From an uncultured Bacteroidota bacterium (GTDB lineage: Bacteria; Bacteroidota; Bacteroidia; AKYH767-A; OLB10), in contig CAADHD010000033.1 in assembly GCA_900696575.1 (NCBI GenBank), positions 1 to 64,000 on the forward strand: a DNA stretch of 64,000 bases, in the 5' to 3' direction. The translations under genes and the position numbers were made by a program. The notes beneath the pieces are model-generated. The model did no database searches. It was not told the DNA's origin and saw only the letters and a list, made by a program, of their open reading frames with translations. Position 1 is the first letter of the stretch. The number at the start of each line of letters is the position of its first letter. Positions 1 to 9,302 of this stretch are shown here, one piece after another.

Positions 1-2055
1 GTACAGGCAAGCGGAACAGCTTTGGTAAATTTATTTGGAAATGATTTTGACGGAAACCAAACATCTGTATTTCTTGAAAACGGAAACTTCAGTAATGCTG
101 TTATTCAGGCAAACCGGTTTATATGCAACAGAGGGAGCATGCGCAGAGCACCTCTGAACGGCAAGATTCCTTATTATCATGTTCAATTGCAGAATGTCTG
201 CTCAACATGTACAAATAATGCCAGCTTCCCAAAGATTGGCCGTGATGTTAATTCAAAGGGAAATCTCTTCGAAAATGCTTTTGGAGGTATCAGTCTTATT
301 GACGCTAAGGCAATAGTTTATAATAACACCTTCAGTAACATCTTTAATAAAAATGGAAACTATCATGCCTCACATTACGGAACAGGTATCTTTGTTGAAA
401 ACAGGCAAATAAGTTCCGGAAAAATTTTTATTGGAGGTATGGATCCATTTCAAAGAAATACTTTTAATGTTGTAAACATTGGTGTGATGGCTATAAACAG
501 AAATTACAATTTTGAGCTTACTATAGCTGATAACCTGTTCAACAATAGCAGCTATTCTACTGAAAGATCAGGAACCAATTTTTATAATACTGCCGTAACT
601 GTTCAATTTAACAAGAAAGGAACTGCTAACAGTTCTGTTTCTGTATATGGCAATGAAATTAATGACTGCAGGATTGGAGTGCACGCAAATCAGGTACAAA
701 ATATCAAAATAGGCGGATACAATACCGGAGGAGGCGCATTATCTAATTTAATTCAATACCATCTTGGCACTTCGGTTTTAACGGATAAGCATCATGGCAT
801 CTGGCTGCAAAACTCACATCATGCCGATGTGCTTGAAAATACAGTTACTAACGATAGTCCCACTTCCGAAGCAACAGTGCGAGGCTTAGTAATTGAGAAC
901 TGCCACATTGCCAACATCGGATGCAACAATTTTGTAAACCTAGGCAGAGGCATCCGCTTTGAAGGCGACTGCACCGGCATGCCCGGTACCCAACTTATTA
1001 AAAACAACATGACCGATTATGAAATTGGTATTGAACTGGATTTGGCACAAATTCCTAATCAAGGCTCCCAAGGCGACCCTTGGGATAACAAATGGAATCA
1101 TTCTTACCCTGTTAATCACGATAAAGTTAGTGGACAACTTTTGCAGCCAATACTTATTGACTGGTATTTTCAAAACAATGATGGCGATGCAAACAATATT
1201 TTCGGCCCTTTCCCGAGAGGGGCTAATCTAATTTTACCTCATGACAATCAAACCACACTTTATCCTCAATGTGTCAACAGCAATCTGAAAGGAGATTTTG
1301 ACCGCGATGCACGGTTTGGCGCTGTGGTGGGCGATTCGGCTCAGTACGAAGATTACGGTAGTGAATTAATATATGCTGCTAAAGCCAGTGTGTATGAAAC
1401 TTTGAAGCAAAACGATTCTTTGCTCAACCTGGGTTTGCCATCAGATGCATCCTTTCAAGATTTTTTTAATGCTATGAACACAACCAATATTGGAGCACTG
1501 TCTGATGTGCAAACTGCTCTCGATTCAAATCAAATTGATACAGCGGCTGTAATCAACAAAGCTGTAAACGATACTAACAGCATTGAGTATGCGCGTAAAA
1601 GCATAAATTCAATTCTCAGTGAGAAGATTTTGAAAAATATTCCAATGACAGCTTCTGATACTGCAACACTTGAATACATTTTCAGTCAACATTGGATACT
1701 TGCAGGAGACGCTGTATATGCTGCTGCTGCCATTCTCTGCAAAGAATATCATTCTCCACATATCAGCTTACGGAAAAGGCATTCCTCTGAACCGGAAAAG
1801 CCAAAAACAGATGCAGAATTTACAAGCATCAGCCTTCATCCCAAACCTGCAAATAATAAATTACATGTAACAGGTTTACCTGAAGCAAACTGTGAGATTG
1901 AAATTTATGACAGCTACTGCCGGCTGTTGCTTAAAAAACTAAATGCTGTTAACAGTTTAATAATTGATTTGCAGGATTACTCCAACGGATTTTATCATTT
2001 ACGGATTCATAACAATTATCAAAATTATAGAACGAATTTTGTAATTCTGAAATAA
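1..2055 (+). CDS. T9SS-exported beta-helix protein, 5' end missing
   Basis: The reading frame is open from the first base, so this is the C-terminal 684 residues of a longer protein. The first ~340 residues are rich in Asn/Gly and in short alternating hydrophobic stretches (GNEINDCRIGVHAN, HHGIWLQNSHHADVLENTVT), as in right-handed parallel beta-helix (NosD-like) surface proteins. A less repetitive acidic middle follows. The last ~80 residues look like a type A T9SS sorting domain: a HPKPANNKLHV start resembling the usual YPNPA motif, beta strands, then YSNGFYHLRI and a short basic tail. This predicts export across the outer membrane and surface attachment or release. The gene 17 bases downstream is on the same strand and is also cargo-like, so they may be co-transcribed. 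Substrate or ligand is unknown. Confidence 0.85.
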   Translation, partial: VQASGTALVNLFGNDFDGNQTSVFLENGNFSNAVIQANRFICNRGSMRRAPLNGKIPYYHVQLQNVCSTCTNNASFPKIGRDVNSKGNLFENAFGGISLIDAKAIVYNNTFSNIFNKNGNYHASHYGTGIFVENRQISSGKIFIGGMDPFQRNTFNVVNIGVMAINRNYNFELTIADNLFNNSSYSTERSGTNFYNTAVTVQFNKKGTANSSVSVYGNEINDCRIGVHANQVQNIKIGGYNTGGGALSNLIQYHLGTSVLTDKHHGIWLQNSHHADVLENTVTNDSPTSEATVRGLVIENCHIANIGCNNFVNLGRGIRFEGDCTGMPGTQLIKNNMTDYEIGIELDLAQIPNQGSQGDPWDNKWNHSYPVNHDKVSGQLLQPILIDWYFQNNDGDANNIFGPFPRGANLILPHDNQTTLYPQCVNSNLKGDFDRDARFGAVVGDSAQYEDYGSELIYAAKASVYETLKQNDSLLNLGLPSDASFQDFFNAMNTTNIGALSDVQTALDSNQIDTAAVINKAVNDTNSIEYARKSINSILSEKILKNIPMTASDTATLEYIFSQHWILAGDAVYAAAAILCKEYHSPHISLRKRHSSEPEKPKTDAEFTSISLHPKPANNKLHVTGLPEANCEIEIYDSYCRLLLKKLNAVNSLIIDLQDYSNGFYHLRIHNNYQNYRTNFVILK

Positions 2056-2072
2056 ATCAATTAGAACACTAA

Positions 2073-3632
2073 ATGATTAATAGATCGTTATTAACTGCAG
2101 CTATTTTTTATTACTGCGTTTTATTTTGTTATTCTCAAAATAAAAATTCAGTTTGGATTTTTGGAGATAGTACCGGAATAGATTTTACTAATAGCTCTAA
2201 TCCAATTTCTATCGCTTCAGCTAATGAATCAAGAGGCACCTCTGCATCTATTTGTGATAGCAATGGACAGTTGTTATTTTATGCATATGATCCTAATATT
2301 GCATTATGGCAATCAGGCGGAACAAGTAAGTTAGGAGTAGTGAAGAACAAACTTCATCAGGTAATCAAGAACGGTGATTCATTAATTGGAAACGGATGGT
2401 ACCACGAAATGGTAATATTACCCATGCCAGGTAGTGATAGCTTGTATTATTTATTTACTGTTGGAGTTTCAGTACCTCCTGACTATGGATTATGGTATTC
2501 TGTAATAAATATAAATTCTGACTCCGTCATTCAGAAAAATATCCAGTTACAAAGTTTTCTGATGGTTGATTGCTTAACTGCCGTTAAACATGGTAATGGC
2601 AGAGACTGGTGGTTAGTTTTCAGAAGGTGGAATCCAAATGGATTACCTGCTATTGATGAGTTTCATTCCTATCTGATTAGCCCTGGAGGAATAACTAATT
2701 ATTCTGTACAGCATGTAGGTACTGGAAATACAACAAACGGAGGTCAAATAACTTTTAATTCAGATGGTGGTAAATTTATTTTTACTAATTTATTAGACTT
2801 GATAGAACAATACGATTTCGACCGCTGCACAGGAATAATTTCAAATCCTGTCACCATTCAGCCACCCGGTACCCCGCCTCCTTATTATCAAATTACATGG
2901 AGCAGCGCATTTTCTCTCAATGACAATGTGCTTTACGTTTCCACATCAGGGAGCGATACAAGTTATTTGTACCAGTTTGATTTAACAGCAGCTAATATCT
3001 ATGCAAGCCGGATAACTCTTGATACTTTTTATTTACCTCCCGTAAGCCCGGGTGCATTAAAGCTTGCACCTGATGGAAAAATTTATTTCAGTTGTGCCTA
3101 TGATAACGGATTTAATTTCAACTATCCTTATGCAGACACCATGTACAACTATGTAAACATGAACTTGAGCGTAATTAATTACCCTGATAGCCTGGGTACT
3201 GCCTGCGGTTATGCTCCATTCAGTTTTTATCTGGGAGGAAAGCGTACCTATTATGGCTTACCTAACAACCCCGATTATGACATGCCGCCACTGGCAGGTT
3301 CACCCTGCGATACGCTTACCGGCCTCACCCCCGGCCCCTCTCCAAAAGAGAGGGGTGCAGAACTCTTTGCAACGTGGGTGAGTTCCTGGCAGAAGCTGTT
3401 TGTGAATGCTCAAAATCTAAAAGGTAAAAAGGTAACGGTGGAGGTGTTTGATGTAACAGGCAAGGTGATTTCCGCCTCACCCCCGACCCCTCTCCCGGTG
3501 GAGAGGGGTGAAGCGCACAATGGCTACTTCACTCAGGATATTTTTCTGCCGAATCTTTCTGCAGGTGTGTATGTGGTAAAATTGCAGACAGAGAAGGAAA
3601 TGCTGAGCAACAAATTTGTGGTGAGTGATTGA
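2073..3632 (+). CDS. T9SS cargo protein, probable beta-propeller, with repeat insertions
   Basis: This 519-residue protein has an N-terminal signal peptide (MINRSLLTAAIFYYCVLFCYSQ) and opens with VWIFGDSTGIDF, a style common in Bacteroidota secreted proteins with propeller-like bodies. Repeated short motifs (LFYAYDP, YYLFTVGV, FIFTNLLDLIEQYDFD, KLAPDGKIYF) fit a beta-propeller. Residues ~430-519 form a type A T9SS sorting domain ending SAGVYVVKLQTEKEMLSNKFVVSD. Two GC-rich palindromic elements are translated in frame, as LTPGPSPKERG before the sorting domain and SPPTPLPVERG inside it. The start is the ATG 17 bases after the preceding stop. No catalytic motif was recognised. Confidence 0.82.
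   Translation: MINRSLLTAAIFYYCVLFCYSQNKNSVWIFGDSTGIDFTNSSNPISIASANESRGTSASICDSNGQLLFYAYDPNIALWQSGGTSKLGVVKNKLHQVIKNGDSLIGNGWYHEMVILPMPGSDSLYYLFTVGVSVPPDYGLWYSVININSDSVIQKNIQLQSFLMVDCLTAVKHGNGRDWWLVFRRWNPNGLPAIDEFHSYLISPGGITNYSVQHVGTGNTTNGGQITFNSDGGKFIFTNLLDLIEQYDFDRCTGIISNPVTIQPPGTPPPYYQITWSSAFSLNDNVLYVSTSGSDTSYLYQFDLTAANIYASRITLDTFYLPPVSPGALKLAPDGKIYFSCAYDNGFNFNYPYADTMYNYVNMNLSVINYPDSLGTACGYAPFSFYLGGKRTYYGLPNNPDYDMPPLAGSPCDTLTGLTPGPSPKERGAELFATWVSSWQKLFVNAQNLKGKKVTVEVFDVTGKVISASPPTPLPVERGEAHNGYFTQDIFLPNLSAGVYVVKLQTEKEMLSNKFVVSD
3323..3357. repeat. Palindromic repeat element, copy A (in-frame)
   Basis: CCTCACCCCCGGCCCCTCTC is followed by AAAA-centred inverted arms: CCCCTCTC at 3335-3342 and GAGAGGGG at 3348-3355. 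It is read as L-T-P-G-P-S-P-K-E-R-G. It matches copy B almost base for base outside the loop and is much more GC-rich than the surrounding gene. The peptide TPGPSPKERG is, as I recall, a recurrent insert in Bacteroidota proteins. Confidence 0.85.
3475..3510. repeat. Palindromic repeat element, copy B (in-frame, inside sorting domain)
   Basis: This is the same core as copy A with a 9-bp stem: CCCCTCTCC at 3487-3495 and GGAGAGGGG at 3500-3508, loop CGGT. It is read in a different frame of the element (S-P-P-T-P-L-P-V-E-R-G) and sits between GKVIS and the YFTQDIFLPNL strand of the T9SS sorting domain. The element therefore tolerates translation in at least two frames without a stop codon. Confidence 0.85.
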
Positions 3633-3670
3633 AAATTTAAAACACACCCCCGCCTGCGCTCCTGCATCCT

Positions 3671-3712
3671 CACCCCCTCTCGCCTGCGCACTATGCCGGC
3701 CGCACAGAGGGG
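3671..3712. repeat. Degenerate third copy of the palindromic repeat
   Basis: Intergenic sequence after the stop codon. A CACCCCCTCT arm (CCCCTCT at 3674-3680) pairs with AGAGGGG at 3706-3712 across a 25-base, GC-rich centre that contains GCCTGCG; GCCTGCG also occurs just upstream, at about 3651. It shares the stem of copies A and B but has a replaced or expanded loop. The element may act as a transcript-end hairpin here, but there is no clear T-run. Confidence 0.6.
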
Positions 3713-3791
3713 AGAAAGAAAAACTCAATCTACATAAGGCAAGGTCAATTCGTGAATTGTGAATTATTCTGAAGTTTCCCCTTATCTGGCA

Positions 3792-5870
3792 TCACCCAAT
3801 ATTCGGATACTCCACCCTCACATGATACATGCTCATGAGCATTTTTCTGAATACTTTTTTAATGGCCGTAACATCTTTAAAGGTAATGTCGCTGTTTATG
3901 AATTGTTCCTGTTTTATGAGCCTGTCAATGATATCATCAATCAAACCGGTAATGGATTTGGCATCATGATTTTTAAGACTGCGGGAAGAGGCTTCAACCG
4001 AATCGGCCATCATCATCACAGCCGTTTCTTTTGAGAAAGGCAGCGGGCCGGGATACCGGAACATTTCCTCATCCACCATTTCATCCGGATAATTTTTAAG
4101 AAAAGACTGATAGAAGTACTGAACCATGGTAGTACCATGATGGGTCCTTATAAAGTCAATTACCAAATCGGGAACATGATGCTGGCGTGCTTTTTCAATT
4201 CCTTTCATTACATGGCTGATAATGATGGATGCACTTTCTTCAAAACTCAGTTCATCATGCGGATTAAACTGCGGGTTCTGGTTTTCGATAAAGTAAAGCG
4301 GCATGTCCATTTTGCCAATATCATGATACAGTGCTCCTACTCTTACCAGCAAGGCATTTCCTCCGATCTCATAAATAGCAGACTCGGCAAGATTGGCAAC
4401 CTGCATGCTGTGTTGAAACGTGCCGGGGGCTTTAACCGATAAATCGCGGAGCAATGGAGAATTAAGGTCAGCCATTTCAAGTAAGGAAACATCAGACGTG
4501 AGCTTAAACATTCGTTCGATAATGTAAATAAGCGGATATGAAAAAAGCGTAAGCATCACGTTGCCCGAAAACCATCCGGCCATTTCGAGGTCAATGCCTT
4601 TAAAGTTGCCCTGATGAATTACAGAAAGGGCTGTGTAGGAAATAAGATAGGAAAGAAAAATCAATGCGATGGAGTAAAACAGTTGCGCCCTCCTTCTCAG
4701 ATGAGTGAAGGAGAAAATGGTAACCATGCCGGCAATGATCTGCATAAACACGAAATCATAACCGTTGTCAGCATACATACCGAGAAAGAGCATAGTGATG
4801 ATATGAGTAAACAGCGCTAACCGCGTATCGAAAAACACCCGGAGGATAATGGGAAGAATACAGACCGGAACAAGGTACTCGTTAATAAACGGATACTTTA
4901 ATGCCTGAGCAAAAGCAAAAGCCACAAGCACCACCATCGAAAGAATGAGCAACACTTTTACATTGTCAGCATAAATGTCTTTTCTCAAGGTGGCCAGAAA
5001 AATCAGAAGCATCATAAAACAAAGAACAACAACCACTGTTCGGCCTACCTGCGGAAGCATTCTTCCTGCACGATTATCAGGATTACGCTCATAAAGTTTT
5101 CGCAGGGATAATAGTTTCTGAGCTATTTCTGCACTTACAGGCTCATCTTTCGAAACAATCAGTTCATCCTTCAATACCATGCCGCGTGTGGTGGAAATGG
5201 CACTGAGTTTTTTCTGCAATTCTTTTTGAGAAAGCGCTGCATCGTATTCCATATCCGGCTGAAGCAGCGAAAGAATTACCGGTTCGAGTATGGAAGCATC
5301 TTCATTGTTAAGTTTTTCAATTTCATTCTGTATAAACTCTTGGGCATGCAACTCATCATAAACCGAAGCAGGGTCAAGGTTTTTCATTTCATTGCCTCGG
5401 ATAATAATAAACTCACGTCCAGGCAAATCCTCATCGCTTAGCGAAGATGCACTGTAGCCGTTTGCGTAAATGGTATTAATCCATTCGGTACCTGCCTGTT
5501 TTATTTTTTCCTTTATCTCATCAGCCTTTGACTTATCACCGGAATGAATTTTGTTCCATTCTAACTCAAATTCAGTTTCAAATTTTTTAATGACAATTCC
5601 CTTTACCGATTCATTGGAGCGGTAATAAGCTGCAGACTGCCTCATCAGCAATTTTTTTTCGGCTTCAACAGAATCTTTCGGTTTCAGTATAGTAAAATCG
5701 AAAGGCGCATACAAGTCATTGTATTTCCATGGAACTCCTTCATCAAATTCGTATTGATAACGGGTGTTGGAAGGAAAAAAACGGGAAATGAGAAATATAG
5801 AAACCACCACAAGGATGAACTTGAAAATATCTTCATGTCTGTTGCTGATGAAGATGAATAACTTTCGCAT
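3792..5870 (-). CDS. 7TM-HD family cyclic dinucleotide phosphodiesterase-like protein (PgpH type)
   Basis: This 692-residue integral membrane protein has the 7TMR-HD architecture. There is one N-terminal membrane segment (FKFILVVVSIFLISRFF), a long extracytoplasmic region rich in charged helices (~30-285, 7TMR-HDED type), a cluster of membrane helices (~290-470) and a C-terminal HD domain. HD residues are visible in TFQHSMQVANLAESA, ALYHDIGKMDMP and RTHHGT. PgpH-type members hydrolyse c-di-AMP in Firmicutes; the substrate here is not known. The start chosen is the ATG at 5870 (MRKLFIFIS). The longer open frame to 6002 runs into the RNase P RNA gene and is not credible. It lies directly downstream of rnpB on the same strand, 47 bases away. 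Confidence 0.9.
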   Translation of the reverse strand: MRKLFIFISNRHEDIFKFILVVVSIFLISRFFPSNTRYQYEFDEGVPWKYNDLYAPFDFTILKPKDSVEAEKKLLMRQSAAYYRSNESVKGIVIKKFETEFELEWNKIHSGDKSKADEIKEKIKQAGTEWINTIYANGYSASSLSDEDLPGREFIIIRGNEMKNLDPASVYDELHAQEFIQNEIEKLNNEDASILEPVILSLLQPDMEYDAALSQKELQKKLSAISTTRGMVLKDELIVSKDEPVSAEIAQKLLSLRKLYERNPDNRAGRMLPQVGRTVVVVLCFMMLLIFLATLRKDIYADNVKVLLILSMVVLVAFAFAQALKYPFINEYLVPVCILPIILRVFFDTRLALFTHIITMLFLGMYADNGYDFVFMQIIAGMVTIFSFTHLRRRAQLFYSIALIFLSYLISYTALSVIHQGNFKGIDLEMAGWFSGNVMLTLFSYPLIYIIERMFKLTSDVSLLEMADLNSPLLRDLSVKAPGTFQHSMQVANLAESAIYEIGGNALLVRVGALYHDIGKMDMPLYFIENQNPQFNPHDELSFEESASIIISHVMKGIEKARQHHVPDLVIDFIRTHHGTTMVQYFYQSFLKNYPDEMVDEEMFRYPGPLPFSKETAVMMMADSVEASSRSLKNHDAKSITGLIDDIIDRLIKQEQFINSDITFKDVTAIKKVFRKMLMSMYHVRVEYPNIG

Positions 5871-5917
5871 AAATGTTGAAAAAAAGTATGTTTTGGCAGT
5901 GCCGAAGATGCATAAAA

Positions 5918-6303
5918 AAAGCAAACCTGTAAGCCGGGTTCTGTACGGAACCGTTGCCGGTACCGCCTCTGCCATTAATCTGCGATGGGGCTCGCGCCTC
6001 ACCTGTATCAGCCTACCCGTTACGGCATGGAGTGAACCAACGGCAGCGGGACACTGCCCATCCGCAACTTATTTGGCCTTTCAACCCGCAAGGTTTGCCC
6101 GCCTGCCGTTTCGCAACGGCAAGCCGTGAGCTCTTACCTCACGATTTCACCCTTATCCGCCAAAGTCGGACGGTATGTTTCTGTTGCACTGTCTGTTTCA
6201 GCAGGATTTCTCCTGATGAACCTTCCCGTTAGGAAGTGCGGTACCCTGTGTTGCCCGGACTTTCCTCCCTGCCCGGTGGCAGAGCGGCAGAGCGGTTTGC
6301 TTT
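5918..6303 (-). ncRNA. rnpB: RNase P RNA, bacterial class A
   Basis: Read on the minus strand, the conserved 5' core GGAGGAAAGTCCGGGC occurs near 6262-6277 and the 3' core ACAGAACCCGGCTTACAG near 5928-5945. The P1 helix closes the molecule: AAAGCAAACC at 6303-6294 pairs with GGTTTGCTTT at 5927-5918, which sets the ends to within a few bases. Length is about 386 nt, normal for class A. A TAnnTTTG box lies just upstream, consistent with its own promoter. The RNA is the catalytic subunit that matures tRNA 5' ends. Open frames crossing this interval are artefacts. Confidence 0.97.
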
Positions 6304-6306
6304 GTG

Positions 6307-6314
6307 CAAAGGTA
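6307..6314 (-). promoter_or_regulatory. -7 promoter element of rnpB
   Basis: TACCTTTG on the minus strand matches the Bacteroidota -7 consensus TAnnTTTG exactly. It ends about three bases before the P1-defined 5' end of the RNase P RNA, so primary-transcript start and mature end probably nearly coincide. No convincing -33 TTG was found at the usual spacing. Confidence 0.7.
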
Positions 6315-6373
6315 ATATCCTAATGTTGCCGGTTATAATTTCAGCGAAAACACGACATTCGCAGCCGCTTTAA

Positions 6374-6461
6374 GGAGAGATGTCCGAGTGGTTTAAGGAG
6401 CGCGCCTGGAAAGTGCGTAAACCCCAAAAGGGTTTCGAGGGTTCGAATCCCTCTCTCTCCG
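6374..6461 (+). tRNA. tRNA-Ser(GGA)
   Basis: An 88-nt class II tRNA with acceptor arms GGAGAGA/TCTCTCC and discriminator G. The anticodon stem is CGCGC/GTGCG with loop CTGGAAA (anticodon GGA at 6408-6410, reading UCC/UCU). It has a long variable arm AAACCCCAAAAGGGTTT and T-loop GGTTCGAATCC. No CCA is encoded after the discriminator. It lies about 70 bases upstream of, and divergent from, rnpB. Confidence 0.97.
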
Positions 6462-6534
6462 CAAACTTTGCGTGTGGGTACATTTATTGTTTGGCCTTAG
6501 TTATTGTTACTGATTTCAGACATCAGAAAATTAC

Positions 6535-6557
6535 GAATTCTTAACTGTGAATTTTTT
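6535..6557 (+). terminator. Weak hairpin plus T-run after tRNA-Ser
   Basis: AATTC (6536-6540) and GAATT (6549-6553) form a short stem across TTAACTGT, followed by a run of T. It could terminate the tRNA transcript. The stem is AT-rich and only five base pairs, so the call is weak. A very similar word occurs at 56248-56264. Confidence 0.35.
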
Positions 6558-6581
6558 CCTTTTAGACGCATCACCCTTTTT

Positions 6582-7478
6582 TCACCCTTCCGGTTTATAA
6601 AGCACTTTATTCTTTATCTTTTTTGATGGTGAAGAAGGATCAGATGTGGATGGATTGCGGAGTTCAACATTTTTATGAAGCACCCATTTTCCCTGTTTCC
6701 ATTTATATGCATCGTATGTAAAATCAGGACCATAGGATTTGAAGTTTCCGGCAAGCTGAGGAGATGGTGGTGAAAGATGATCAAATACAATACGCTTTTT
6801 CTTTTCGTCATAATTCAACGACATTACTGCACGCGCATTGTACTCGAAAAGGATGCGTTGCCTGATCCCAAAGTCTGTTTGAAAAAGAGGAGCTCCAAAA
6901 GAAATTTTTCCATTTTCAATAGTCAGTACATCGATTACCTTCATGGTTGATTCGTTGTCTATACCCCGCCAGCCCAGCAACGTATAAAAAGCTTTTCCTT
7001 TTACTGATGTGGTAATCAATTTATAATAAAGTGAACCAAGCCAGTTATCAGAATTCAACAATAGCTTTTCGGCAATCTGCCTGTCGGGCATATTATTATG
7101 CAGCCGAATAACCTGAGGTATTTCTGCCTTTTTGTTCCTCCATTGTACAAAACCAAAATAGCGATATTGCTTTCCGCCTGTCAATGGACATATAAAAGTG
7201 TAAACACGCAGAAGCTTATCCCTGTCAGTGAGTACAGAGAGATTTTTAAGCGAATCAAACTGTAAATCCATACGGCTATCCTTTTTCAAAAGTTCAAAAA
7301 GGAGCGAATCAAATTTTCCGGCATGCTCCAACCTAACCGAATCGGTTGTGCCTTGCTGAATGCTGTCGGCCATTTGCTTTAAAAATTCAATTTCAATATC
7401 CCGGGCAGCAGGTTTTAGCTGAGCAACAGTGCGAAAGCCTAAAAAGAAAAAGATTACACTGGCGATATATTTAAACAT
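6582..7478 (-). CDS. Secreted protein of unknown function
   Basis: A 298-residue protein with a signal peptide (MFKYIASVIFFFLGFRTVAQ). The body contains CPLTGGKQYRYFGFVQW, LGWRGIDNESTMKVIDVLTI and a C-terminal basic stretch. Proteins of this style occur in Bacteroidota, but I cannot name the family or assign a function. The start is placed at the ATG at 7478. The open frame continues to 7748 but would overlap era and lose the signal peptide from the N terminus; an ATG at 7535 (MKFERF) is a second possibility. It is divergent from era. Confidence 0.75.
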   Translation of the reverse strand: MFKYIASVIFFFLGFRTVAQLKPAARDIEIEFLKQMADSIQQGTTDSVRLEHAGKFDSLLFELLKKDSRMDLQFDSLKNLSVLTDRDKLLRVYTFICPLTGGKQYRYFGFVQWRNKKAEIPQVIRLHNNMPDRQIAEKLLLNSDNWLGSLYYKLITTSVKGKAFYTLLGWRGIDNESTMKVIDVLTIENGKISFGAPLFQTDFGIRQRILFEYNARAVMSLNYDEKKKRIVFDHLSPPSPQLAGNFKSYGPDFTYDAYKWKQGKWVLHKNVELRNPSTSDPSSPSKKIKNKVLYKPEG

Positions 7479-7595
7479 GCGGCTGAAACGTATCAAAGCA
7501 AACAATATTGTATTGCTGAAGCGTTCAAATTTCATAAAGCAAATCGGGATTAAGAGGCATGTCTTTACAATTATATTCAAGAGAATTTCAACAAG

Positions 7596-7603
7596 TACCT
7601 TTG
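7596..7603 (+). promoter_or_regulatory. -7 promoter element of era, five bases before the ATG
   Basis: TACCTTTG is an exact TAnnTTTG match and is followed by CGCTG and then the era ATG at 7609. Transcription normally starts roughly 4-9 bases after this element, so the era mRNA may be leaderless or nearly so. The same five-base spacing is seen before the E1 dehydrogenase gene at 23506. No -33 TTG is obvious. Confidence 0.65.
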
Positions 7604-7608
7604 CGCTG

Positions 7609-8487
7609 ATGAAACACCGTTCAGGATTCTGCGCCATAACCGGTAAACCGAATGCCGGCAAATCAACCTTAATGAATAGAATCATAGGTACTTCCCTTTC
7701 TGCAGTAACTCCAAAAGCACAGACTACACGGCACAGAATTAAAGGCATATTAAATGATGATGATTACCAGATTGTTTTCAGCGATACCCCCGGATTACTC
7801 ACTCCTGCTTATCTTTTGCATGAGAAAATGACTGAAGCTATCAAGCAGTCCTGCGAAGATGCTGATGTGGTTTTACTCGTAACCGATTGCACTGAAAAGC
7901 CCGATGATGCTGTTGTTGATTTTCTTAAATCCGCTTCCTCTCCCTTAGTGATTGCTCTTAACAAAGCAGATTTATCAACGCAAACTGAAGTAGAACAGCG
8001 GATTATTGAATACAGACATTTGTTTCCTGCTGCAACCATCATACCCATATCGGCTCAGGAAAATTTCAATATTCGTGAATTGGTTGAAGCTATTCTGAGT
8101 CATTTGCCCGAAGGCGAAGCATTTTACAGCAAGGAAGAACTGAGCGACCGCAACCAAAGGTTTTTTGCAGAAGAGATTATCCGCGAACAGATTTTTTTGT
8201 ATTACGAAAAAGAAATACCCTACAGCGCTGAAGTAGCCGTTACCCATTGGCAGGACAAAGAGTCGCTGATAAAAATGGATGCCGTTATTTTTGTACTTCG
8301 CGAAACACAGAAAGCCATTTTGCTAGGACATAAAGGCTCGTCTATTAAAAGGATGGCCACGGCAGCTCGGAAAAAATTAGAATCGTTTACCGGCAGAAAA
8401 GTTTTCCTGGAACTTACCGTAAAAGTCAATCCCAAATGGCGGACCGATGAGTCAATGCTGAAGCGCCTTGGTTATGATGAGCACTGA
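7609..8487 (+). CDS. era: GTPase Era
   Basis: A 292-residue ribosome-assembly GTPase that binds 16S rRNA during 30S maturation. The G1 motif GKPNAGKST, G3 DTPG and G4 NKAD are present. The C-terminal KH domain contains ILLGHKGSSIKRMA. Length matches the family (~295). The start is the ATG giving MKHRSGFCAITGKP; the upstream in-frame extension to 7429 overlaps the divergent gene and adds no family-like sequence. Together with rnpB and tRNA-Ser nearby this is a small housekeeping patch. Confidence 0.96.
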   Translation: MKHRSGFCAITGKPNAGKSTLMNRIIGTSLSAVTPKAQTTRHRIKGILNDDDYQIVFSDTPGLLTPAYLLHEKMTEAIKQSCEDADVVLLVTDCTEKPDDAVVDFLKSASSPLVIALNKADLSTQTEVEQRIIEYRHLFPAATIIPISAQENFNIRELVEAILSHLPEGEAFYSKEELSDRNQRFFAEEIIREQIFLYYEKEIPYSAEVAVTHWQDKESLIKMDAVIFVLRETQKAILLGHKGSSIKRMATAARKKLESFTGRKVFLELTVKVNPKWRTDESMLKRLGYDEH

Positions 8488-8579
8488 TTTAATAAATTTC
8501 TGACCTTAATCAGATGCCTCGCTGATTTTGATTAGCCCCCTCGCTGAAACCTCATGTCAATTTTGAAATAAAAAAGGAC

Positions 8580-9302
8580 ATGAAAAAGATTACTATCCTC
8601 ATACTTATAGCGGCTGCTTTCCAGTCCTGCAAAAATGATAAGGACGAACAACTGCAACCGCAGCTTGAATATGTTACTGTAAATCTCACCTTTGATTGTG
8701 ACGGGGCTGCCATAGTTAAAGATCAGTTCAACTACACAAATGCTGCCGGCAACAATTATTCGGTGAGCAGGCTGCAGTTTTATTTGGCTGACTTCACTTT
8801 TCGCAAAACAGACGGAACAGAAGTGAAAAGCGATGAAGTGTTTTTCGTTGACTTTTTTGCCGGCAAAAATCTTAGTTTCAACTTTAGCAAAATTCCAAAA
8901 GGAGATTATGACAGGATAAAATTCTGCATCGGTTTACCTCCATCCCAAAACATTACCGGTGCATTACCCAATACGATTGACAATACGAATATGGTCTGGC
9001 CGGATATGATGGGAGGCGGATATCATTTTCTGAAAATGGAAGGGCAATTTAAATTCTCAGGAAACACGTATGGATATGCTTTGCATCTCGGCAAGAATCC
9101 TCACCTGGTCCGTATTGAATCTTCCAAATCATTTAATCTTTCAGGAAGTTCAGCATCACTTTCCATGAAAATGAACATCAATGAATGGTTCCGCATACCT
9201 CATACGTATGACCTGAATACGGATGGCAACTACACTATGGGCACCGATTCGCTGATGCTGAAGATTGCCGAAAATGGAACCGATGTCTTCACCATTCAAT
9301 AA
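8580..9302 (+). CDS. MbnP-like copper-binding lipoprotein
   Basis: A 240-residue lipoprotein (MKKITILILIAAAFQSC, lipobox AFQSC). The body matches my recollection of the MbnP family: LEYVTVNLTFDCDG near the N terminus, VSRLQFYLADFTF, then NTNMVWPDMMGGGYHFLKMEG and a C-terminal NEWFRIP. In characterised MbnP, a tryptophan is oxidised to kynurenine by the partner diheme enzyme MbnH and contributes to copper binding; W in MVWPDM and W in NEWF are the visible candidates. The next gene, seven bases downstream, encodes a diheme enzyme, which supports the pairing. Located in the outer membrane or periplasm by inference. Confidence 0.8.
   Translation: MKKITILILIAAAFQSCKNDKDEQLQPQLEYVTVNLTFDCDGAAIVKDQFNYTNAAGNNYSVSRLQFYLADFTFRKTDGTEVKSDEVFFVDFFAGKNLSFNFSKIPKGDYDRIKFCIGLPPSQNITGALPNTIDNTNMVWPDMMGGGYHFLKMEGQFKFSGNTYGYALHLGKNPHLVRIESSKSFNLSGSSASLSMKMNINEWFRIPHTYDLNTDGNYTMGTDSLMLKIAENGTDVFTIQ

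Follow-up and report, generated by a model that had tools for sequence, protein, structure and literature searches.

In-frame hairpins in Bacteroidota genes as possible relatives of a homing-like DUF559 nuclease element

The common view is that homing endonucleases depend on a self-splicing intron or intein to invade conserved genes. The mobility of in-frame palindromic repeats is, to our knowledge, a long-standing open question. Rickettsia palindromic elements (RPE) and intragenic GTAG/CGTC REPs are short palindromes found in frame in many unrelated genes, including genes of DNA repair, tRNA synthetases and truB, and the accessible part of their description reports no evident function for the protein (PMC3733652). 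Going by the same part, in-frame palindromes as such are already known (PMC3733652). The Caulobacter protein VsrA, a DUF559 protein, has been tied to the DNA damage response in vivo, according to the accessible portion of that report (PMC12907096). It belongs to the same nuclease domain family as the hairpin-flanked DUF559 described below, but it is free-standing and is discussed in terms of mismatch repair, and that portion describes neither hairpin ends nor in-frame insertion (PMC12907096). Our literature search, largely confined to papers available without subscription, returned no paper describing DUF559 either bounded by hairpins or in frame within host genes.

The hairpins studied here are like the RPE in being short palindromes in frame, in several frames and in many unrelated genes, a likeness judged on the insertion pattern given in the accessible part of the RPE description. 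They differ from RPE and REPs in occurring in another phylum, in having neither a GTAG/CGTC tag nor a RAYT link, and in being related to the ends of a putative nuclease element. That element has in common with EDxHD homing endonucleases (I-Bth0305I, 3r3p) and inteins a predicted Vsr-like fold, recurrent sites, patchiness and purifying selection. Unlike these, it has C-rich inverted hairpin ends and its nuclease is kept as an internal domain of the host; no intein splicing domain was found and no extra DNA-binding domain was recognised. As with MITEs, the ends of a longer, coding element appear to have short non-autonomous relatives, which share its terminal inverted repeats. However, the partner here is a PD-(D/E)XK nuclease and not a transposase, and the solo copies resemble one end, not two.

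The window is the whole stretch of 64,000 nucleotides analysed here, from an uncultured Bacteroidota bacterium. Its features are collected in the table below. Homologues of the host gene were present in 23 of 25 searched genomes, the own genome included. The protein scores 35.2 bits against PF18962 (cut-off, 27 bits), which predicts a sorting domain and marks it as a putative T9SS cargo. Two hairpin copies of ∼36 bp each, A (∼aa 417–428) and B (∼aa 468–480), are each built of a C-rich tail of 12 nt, CCTCACCCCCGR, and then a GC hairpin, and have in common CCTCACCCCCG-CCCCTCTCC plus the inverted arm. This shared core, noted in the first-pass annotation, was confirmed: the pattern with up to three mismatches gave two matches in the window and none in any of 100 shuffles. 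Also as annotated, both copies lie within the host ORF, in frame and in different frames of the element. R1, a covariance model made from six copies with copy B held out, scored copy A at 54.8 bits (E = 4e–8) and copy B at 41.5 bits (E = 2.6e–5). Both are predicted to form stable hairpins, with folding energies of –17.0 kcal/mol for copy A (z = –3.5) and –20.3 kcal/mol for copy B (z = –2.1).

Table. Features of the host gene and its hairpins, in window coordinates.
Feature	Position	Strand	Remarks
Host gene ORF	2073..3632	+	519 aa, with C-terminal T9SS sorting domain; in a paralogous Bacteroidota family
Hairpin copy A	3323..3357	+	In frame as LTPGPSPKERG; linker ahead of the sorting domain
Por_Secre_tail (PF18962), predicted T9SS C-terminal sorting domain	3393..3623	+	aa 441–517, Pfam E = 1.6e–8
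Hairpin copy B	3475..3511	+	In frame as SPPTPLPVERG; within a sorting-domain loop
GC-loop variant hairpin	∼3671..3714		Between convergent genes

The extent of PF18962 places copy B inside the sorting domain and copy A outside it. That copy B interrupts a loop of this domain agrees with the alignment, in which the loop of the homologues is shorter and free of the element. The annotated in-frame insertion thus stands for copy B, but for copy A a clean insertion is unsupported: at this site paralogue L004 has an unrelated linker sequence, of which copy A replaces ∼31 bp. Since the linker of L004 is of nearly equal length, copy A looks like an insertion plus a loss. An element-like sequence is also present in the corresponding linker of genome G018 (L039) and, in degenerate form, in that of G005 (L067). 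Paralogue L004 has an element of its own ∼8 nt from the position of copy B, read in another frame. A scan of window positions 1–9000 against Rfam found no known RNA family at the hairpins. Its matches were a class A RNase P RNA (241 bits) at 5914–6303 (–) and one tRNA gene at 6374–6461 (+); the ORFs called over 5914–6303 are probably spurious or have a misplaced start.

Genome-wide, the pattern with up to three mismatches was matched 8 times, compared with once for a reversed control, and R1 recognised seven strong copies, copy B among them, plus a few weak ones. The genes with in-frame copies include metG, a dnaE-like gene and L004, the paralogue of the T9SS host gene; a further copy is located near a gene start. 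The dnaE-like gene has a second related hairpin ∼30 codons upstream of its element, and metH harbors a degenerate copy. The consensus of the element ends in CCTC on one side and in GAGGGGAG on the other. For metG, the element is lacking from all 29 of the other 29 aligned rows, one of them from the same genus; together with the shorter copy B loop of the homologues, these are empty sites. In a by-eye search of the metG and paralogue alignments the empty-site orthologues were too diverged to show any target-site duplication. In metG of G009 (L090) a different, repeat-like sequence (GSRITHHGSR) occupies the same MetRS loop, which may thus serve as a landing place for more than one kind of insert.

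A third, degenerate copy had been annotated behind the host gene. This hairpin is instead a GC-loop variant: R1 did not report it in a genome-wide search even at E ≤ 10, and it folds no better than shuffled sequences (z = –0.8). It matches the 3′ flank of paralogue L004 (93% identity, 44 nt) and that of a truncated DUF559 gene in locus L392 of the same genome (91%, 22 nt), and we rejected it as a copy of the element. In L392 (G000:C10, near 1490–1800, –), a 5′-truncated DUF559 fragment stands behind a thioredoxin-like gene, with the GC-loop hairpin after it. The genome yielded no intact DUF559: the strong match is this fragment, and a second, weak one scores 23 bits and falls within a frame of 1462 aa. 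Since the only hairpin-adjacent DUF559 gene found is truncated, the solo hairpins of this genome look like relics.

Copies are not confined to the host gene and its genome. R1 matches at E ≤ 0.01 were found in 27 of 61 genomes, with 86 in G041, 73 in G032 and none in a genome of the same genus. A phylum-wide scan at E ≤ 1e–4 yielded matches in at least 27 of 296 genomes, a lower bound because at most 23 candidates were scored per genome, and an exact pattern scan of named genomes yielded at least 120 stretches. Nearly all titles among the matches listed are Bacteroidota (Hymenobacter, Prevotellaceae, Flavobacteriales, Cytophagales); the exceptions among the pattern-scan matches listed are two records without a phylum name.

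To describe frames and hosts we used loci from four relatives, G035 (∼17 of 37 matches), G041 (41 of 86), G037 (6 of 19) and G044 (2 of 24); the fetched loci overlap in part, and some places were taken twice. From 80 element rows, 74 were kept after leaving out five of partial length and one on the opposite strand, and 73 after leaving out one 66-nt match; in two further listings 9 of 59 and 4 of 63 rows were omitted for partial length. Of the 73 elements, 42 lie within ORFs of at least 200 aa and 20 aa or more from either end, as compared with 66% of random positions. These 42 occur in both orientations and use five frames (16, 12, 7, 6 and 1 elements), while the stop-containing frame is never used (0 of 42). 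The base preceding the element is G in 57 cases and A in 15 (n = 72), a purine preference at –1. At the loci of named genomes the stop frame is again unused and 28 of 88 elements are intragenic versus 77% for random positions; the element is therefore depleted in genes at these loci. Sequence context or Pfam identified alaS, leuS, truB, polA and a folC/Mur-ligase-like gene as hosts, and in G041 elements are also found at T9SS loops and linkers. The first-pass annotation had taken the conserved unit to be a DNA or RNA hairpin and not a peptide. For a DNA hairpin this reading is supported by the further copies in the genome, by the use of five of six frames, by the copy of L004 in another frame and by the empty sites in orthologues.

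The 1158-aa ORF of leuS in G035 (L117, 720–4193, –) contains five hairpins and, in frame between two of them, a DUF559 domain. We found that presence of DUF559 and of the element is associated across the 61 genomes (both present in 20, a single one in 7 and 7, neither in 27; Fisher test, P-value 3.5e–5; Spearman 0.68). An R1 match lies within 250 bp at 23 of 51 DUF559 loci, taken from a Pfam-only search with weak or short matches and a few others left out, versus 0 of 31 Y1 loci. The density of elements near DUF559 is 18-fold above the density far off. Independently of the model, 29 of the 45 DUF559 loci that could be tested have flanking inverted repeats, as against 0 of 200 random windows of the same loci; 9 of 25 Y1 loci have inverted repeats, none with an R1 match. 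The whole unit is compact (∼450 bp). When used as a query for the phylum, it matched in 166 of 395 genomes, and the most similar matches lie mostly within long open frames, from which the 40 modules examined were drawn. Across these modules the hairpins are ordered (left: 20 plus versus 3 minus; right: 14 minus versus 5 plus), although their presence is partly a matter of selection, because the query included hairpin-derived residues. All both-sided in-frame cases among the DUF559 loci are left plus and right minus. No R1 match lies nearby at 28 of 51 DUF559 loci and at 15 of 40 modules. Since 7 of the 27 element-bearing genomes (G018 and G027, for example) have no DUF559 match, the element does not at present strictly depend on an intact nuclease. 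Two further forms of the hairpin were observed. Locus L159 (1334–1380) has a double-tailed element (CCTCACCCCCGA-hairpin-TCGGGGG), the shape that would be left by loss of the stretch between a pair of inverted ends. Longer variants (∼70 nt) recognised by R1 are present in several copies near a DUF559 gene in L332 (G010) and L333 (G014).

DUF559 is found together with Pfam domains of LeuRS, MetH, RecG, IleRS, RecJ, acetyl-CoA synthetase (Acs), CoA-transferase, methylmalonyl-CoA mutase (MutB), a SpoIIE-type regulator, HsdR, HsdM, an Eco57I-type methylase and a UvrD-type helicase. Pfam scans of the host proteins revealed no Hint/intein splicing domain around it. Restriction-modification genes (HsdR, HsdM, Eco57I-type) are frequent hosts (L505, L511, L506, L514, L517, L353, L504, L512, L513), and a nuclease within a restriction system may follow a logic of its own. 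In L355 (G048:C20), an ORF with SpvB/TcdB-like domains has DUF559 towards its N-terminus.

Insertion sites recur. Thirteen distinct modules are located at one turn of LeuRS, between NWIGxSxG..F and FTTRPDT, among them those of a Tannerella MAG (L229), a Cytophagales MAG (L176), a Flammeovirgaceae MAG (L192) and a Flavobacteriales MAG (L236); eight are at one MetH linker and five at one RecG site. Of 30 aligned LeuRS sequences, 27 have this turn empty. Among 49 genomes there are four LeuRS insertions, all open and in frame, three at the main site and one elsewhere. In a tree of 91 DUF559 domains (identical and short sequences excluded) most modules of housekeeping genes form one group, the LeuRS-site modules are scattered over several places, and L236 from leuS is paired with L209 from mutB (support 0.99). 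The identity of modules is weakly correlated with that of their hosts (rho = 0.26); for L485 and L516, from one genus, the hosts are 86% identical and the modules 43%. In these comparisons the relationships of DUF559 do not track the host leuS. The dN/dS ratio is 0.05, 0.14 and 0.18 in the three pairs with usable dS (in most remaining pairs dS is saturated, and one pair is near-identical), which indicates that the nuclease is under purifying selection. Judged from sequence, then, homologous genes repeatedly carry the insertion at one site, its distribution is patchy and it does not track the host, a pattern that suggests a homing element.

The predicted core of DUF559 is confident, mostly with pLDDT above 75, and the model points to a nuclease fold of the homing type. 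Its structural matches are 3hrl (Z = 15.4), the homing endonuclease I-Bth0305I (3r3p, Z = 13.5) and Vsr (Z = 10.6); a match to 3r3p on sequence has an E-value of 0.26. The hairpin-coded peptides are predicted with low confidence, as in disordered stretches. A fold in common with homing endonucleases does not prove the function of DUF559.

Overall, we suggest, with a probability of about 0.6, that behind the solo hairpins stands a homing-like DUF559 element, in frame and non-splicing, of which they are non-autonomous relatives. Copies A and B would be solo representatives of a family of Bacteroidota elements, ∼36 bp long and made of a 12-nt C-rich tail and a GC hairpin of 8–10 bp. Such elements would be inserted as DNA and then read through as surface linkers of 11–14 residues, because five of their six frames are open and only net in-frame insertions in tolerant turns would survive. 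This survival is a selection step that we infer, with frames and empty sites read from the sequences. Hairpins of the same family would form the inverted ends of a ∼450 bp element encoding a Vsr/I-Bth0305I-like PD-(D/E)XK endonuclease (DUF559); no splicing domain is recognised in it, and the nuclease would be produced as an internal part of the host protein. We infer from the recurrent sites, the patchy distribution and the purifying selection that the nuclease probably cuts empty alleles and that repair copies the element in, as for homing endonucleases. The solo hairpins, those of the window included, would be non-autonomous copies or one-ended derivatives that such a nuclease may have moved in trans. 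Somewhat better than an even chance may be given to a broader proposal, that hairpin-bounded DUF559 in turns of essential proteins, expressed in frame and unspliced within the host enzyme and homing into empty alleles while its ends spread solo through coding genes as linkers, constitutes a new class of selfish elements.

It is also conceivable that two independent elements settle in tolerated loops, the hairpins being moved by another enzyme and DUF559 merely nested or adjacent without mobilising them. The seven element-bearing genomes without DUF559 would fit, as would the large excess of solo copies over DUF559 in some genomes (86 versus 4 in G041) and the acceptance of other inserts by some loops, such as the MetRS loop of G009. 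However, the left plus and right minus order of the hairpins fits a single unit with defined ends, and random windows showed no such inverted repeats (0 of 200), so that we consider independence rather unlikely, if still a serious contender. It is improbable that the hairpins are REP-like sequences moved by a Y1 (IS200-like) transposase, as in REP/RAYT systems. Their size, shape, both orientations and in-frame intragenic copies do resemble REPs and RPEs as far as the accessible description goes (PMC3733652), and Y1 genes exist in the own genome. Nevertheless, no Y1 locus has an element match (0 of 31, 93 kb), no relation is seen between the presence of Y1 and that of the element (24/3/28/6, Fisher test, P-value 0.72; Spearman of counts 0.25, P-value 0.05), and a GTAG or CGTC tag is absent from both consensus ends. 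Both own Y1 genes are bordered by other palindromes. We therefore rejected RAYT/Y1 as the mover. From the comparison with REP/RPE palindromes in the first-pass annotation, the in-frame insertion behaviour survives, but the tag and the Y1 transposase it had pointed to do not. The palindromes at the own Y1 genes (L009, L010) are CATCCCTTCGGGATTGAA around one and GGCGCGCGTTTGTAACGCGTG around the other, which has an open frame of 227 aa.

Proteins would remain uninterrupted if the inserts were removed before or during translation, as an intron, an intein or by ribosomal bypassing. Homing endonucleases are often found within self-splicing introns or inteins, according to the accessible part of one account (PMC3943268), and the insertion sites are in conserved catalytic genes, as with inteins. 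On the other hand, the Pfam scans of host proteins detected no splicing domain, and splicing or bypassing would require neither the open frame nor the correct phase that all four LeuRS insertions among 49 genomes have; we hold removal to be very improbable. A protein-level repeat or functional linker peptide is barely credible. LTPGPSP-like peptides do occur in the same frame in some linkers of three genera, yet the DNA is conserved while five frames and both strands are used, and orthologues are without the peptide. Frame usage led us to reject a repeat at the peptide level.

The homing-like DUF559 element proposed here places a nuclease of predicted homing fold, with no splicing device found, in the middle of LeuRS, methionine synthase and RecG at recurrent sites. 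If this reading is true, a selfish gene would have a second route into essential genes, being translated with the host protein after landing in a turn. It would also suggest a role for DUF559 and provide a candidate mover for in-frame palindromic repeats. Many odd Pro/Gly-rich linkers of Bacteroidota proteins (LTPGPSPKERG, SPLLWRGAGGE, PLSFGEGPGVR) would then probably be scars of DNA elements and not functional peptides.
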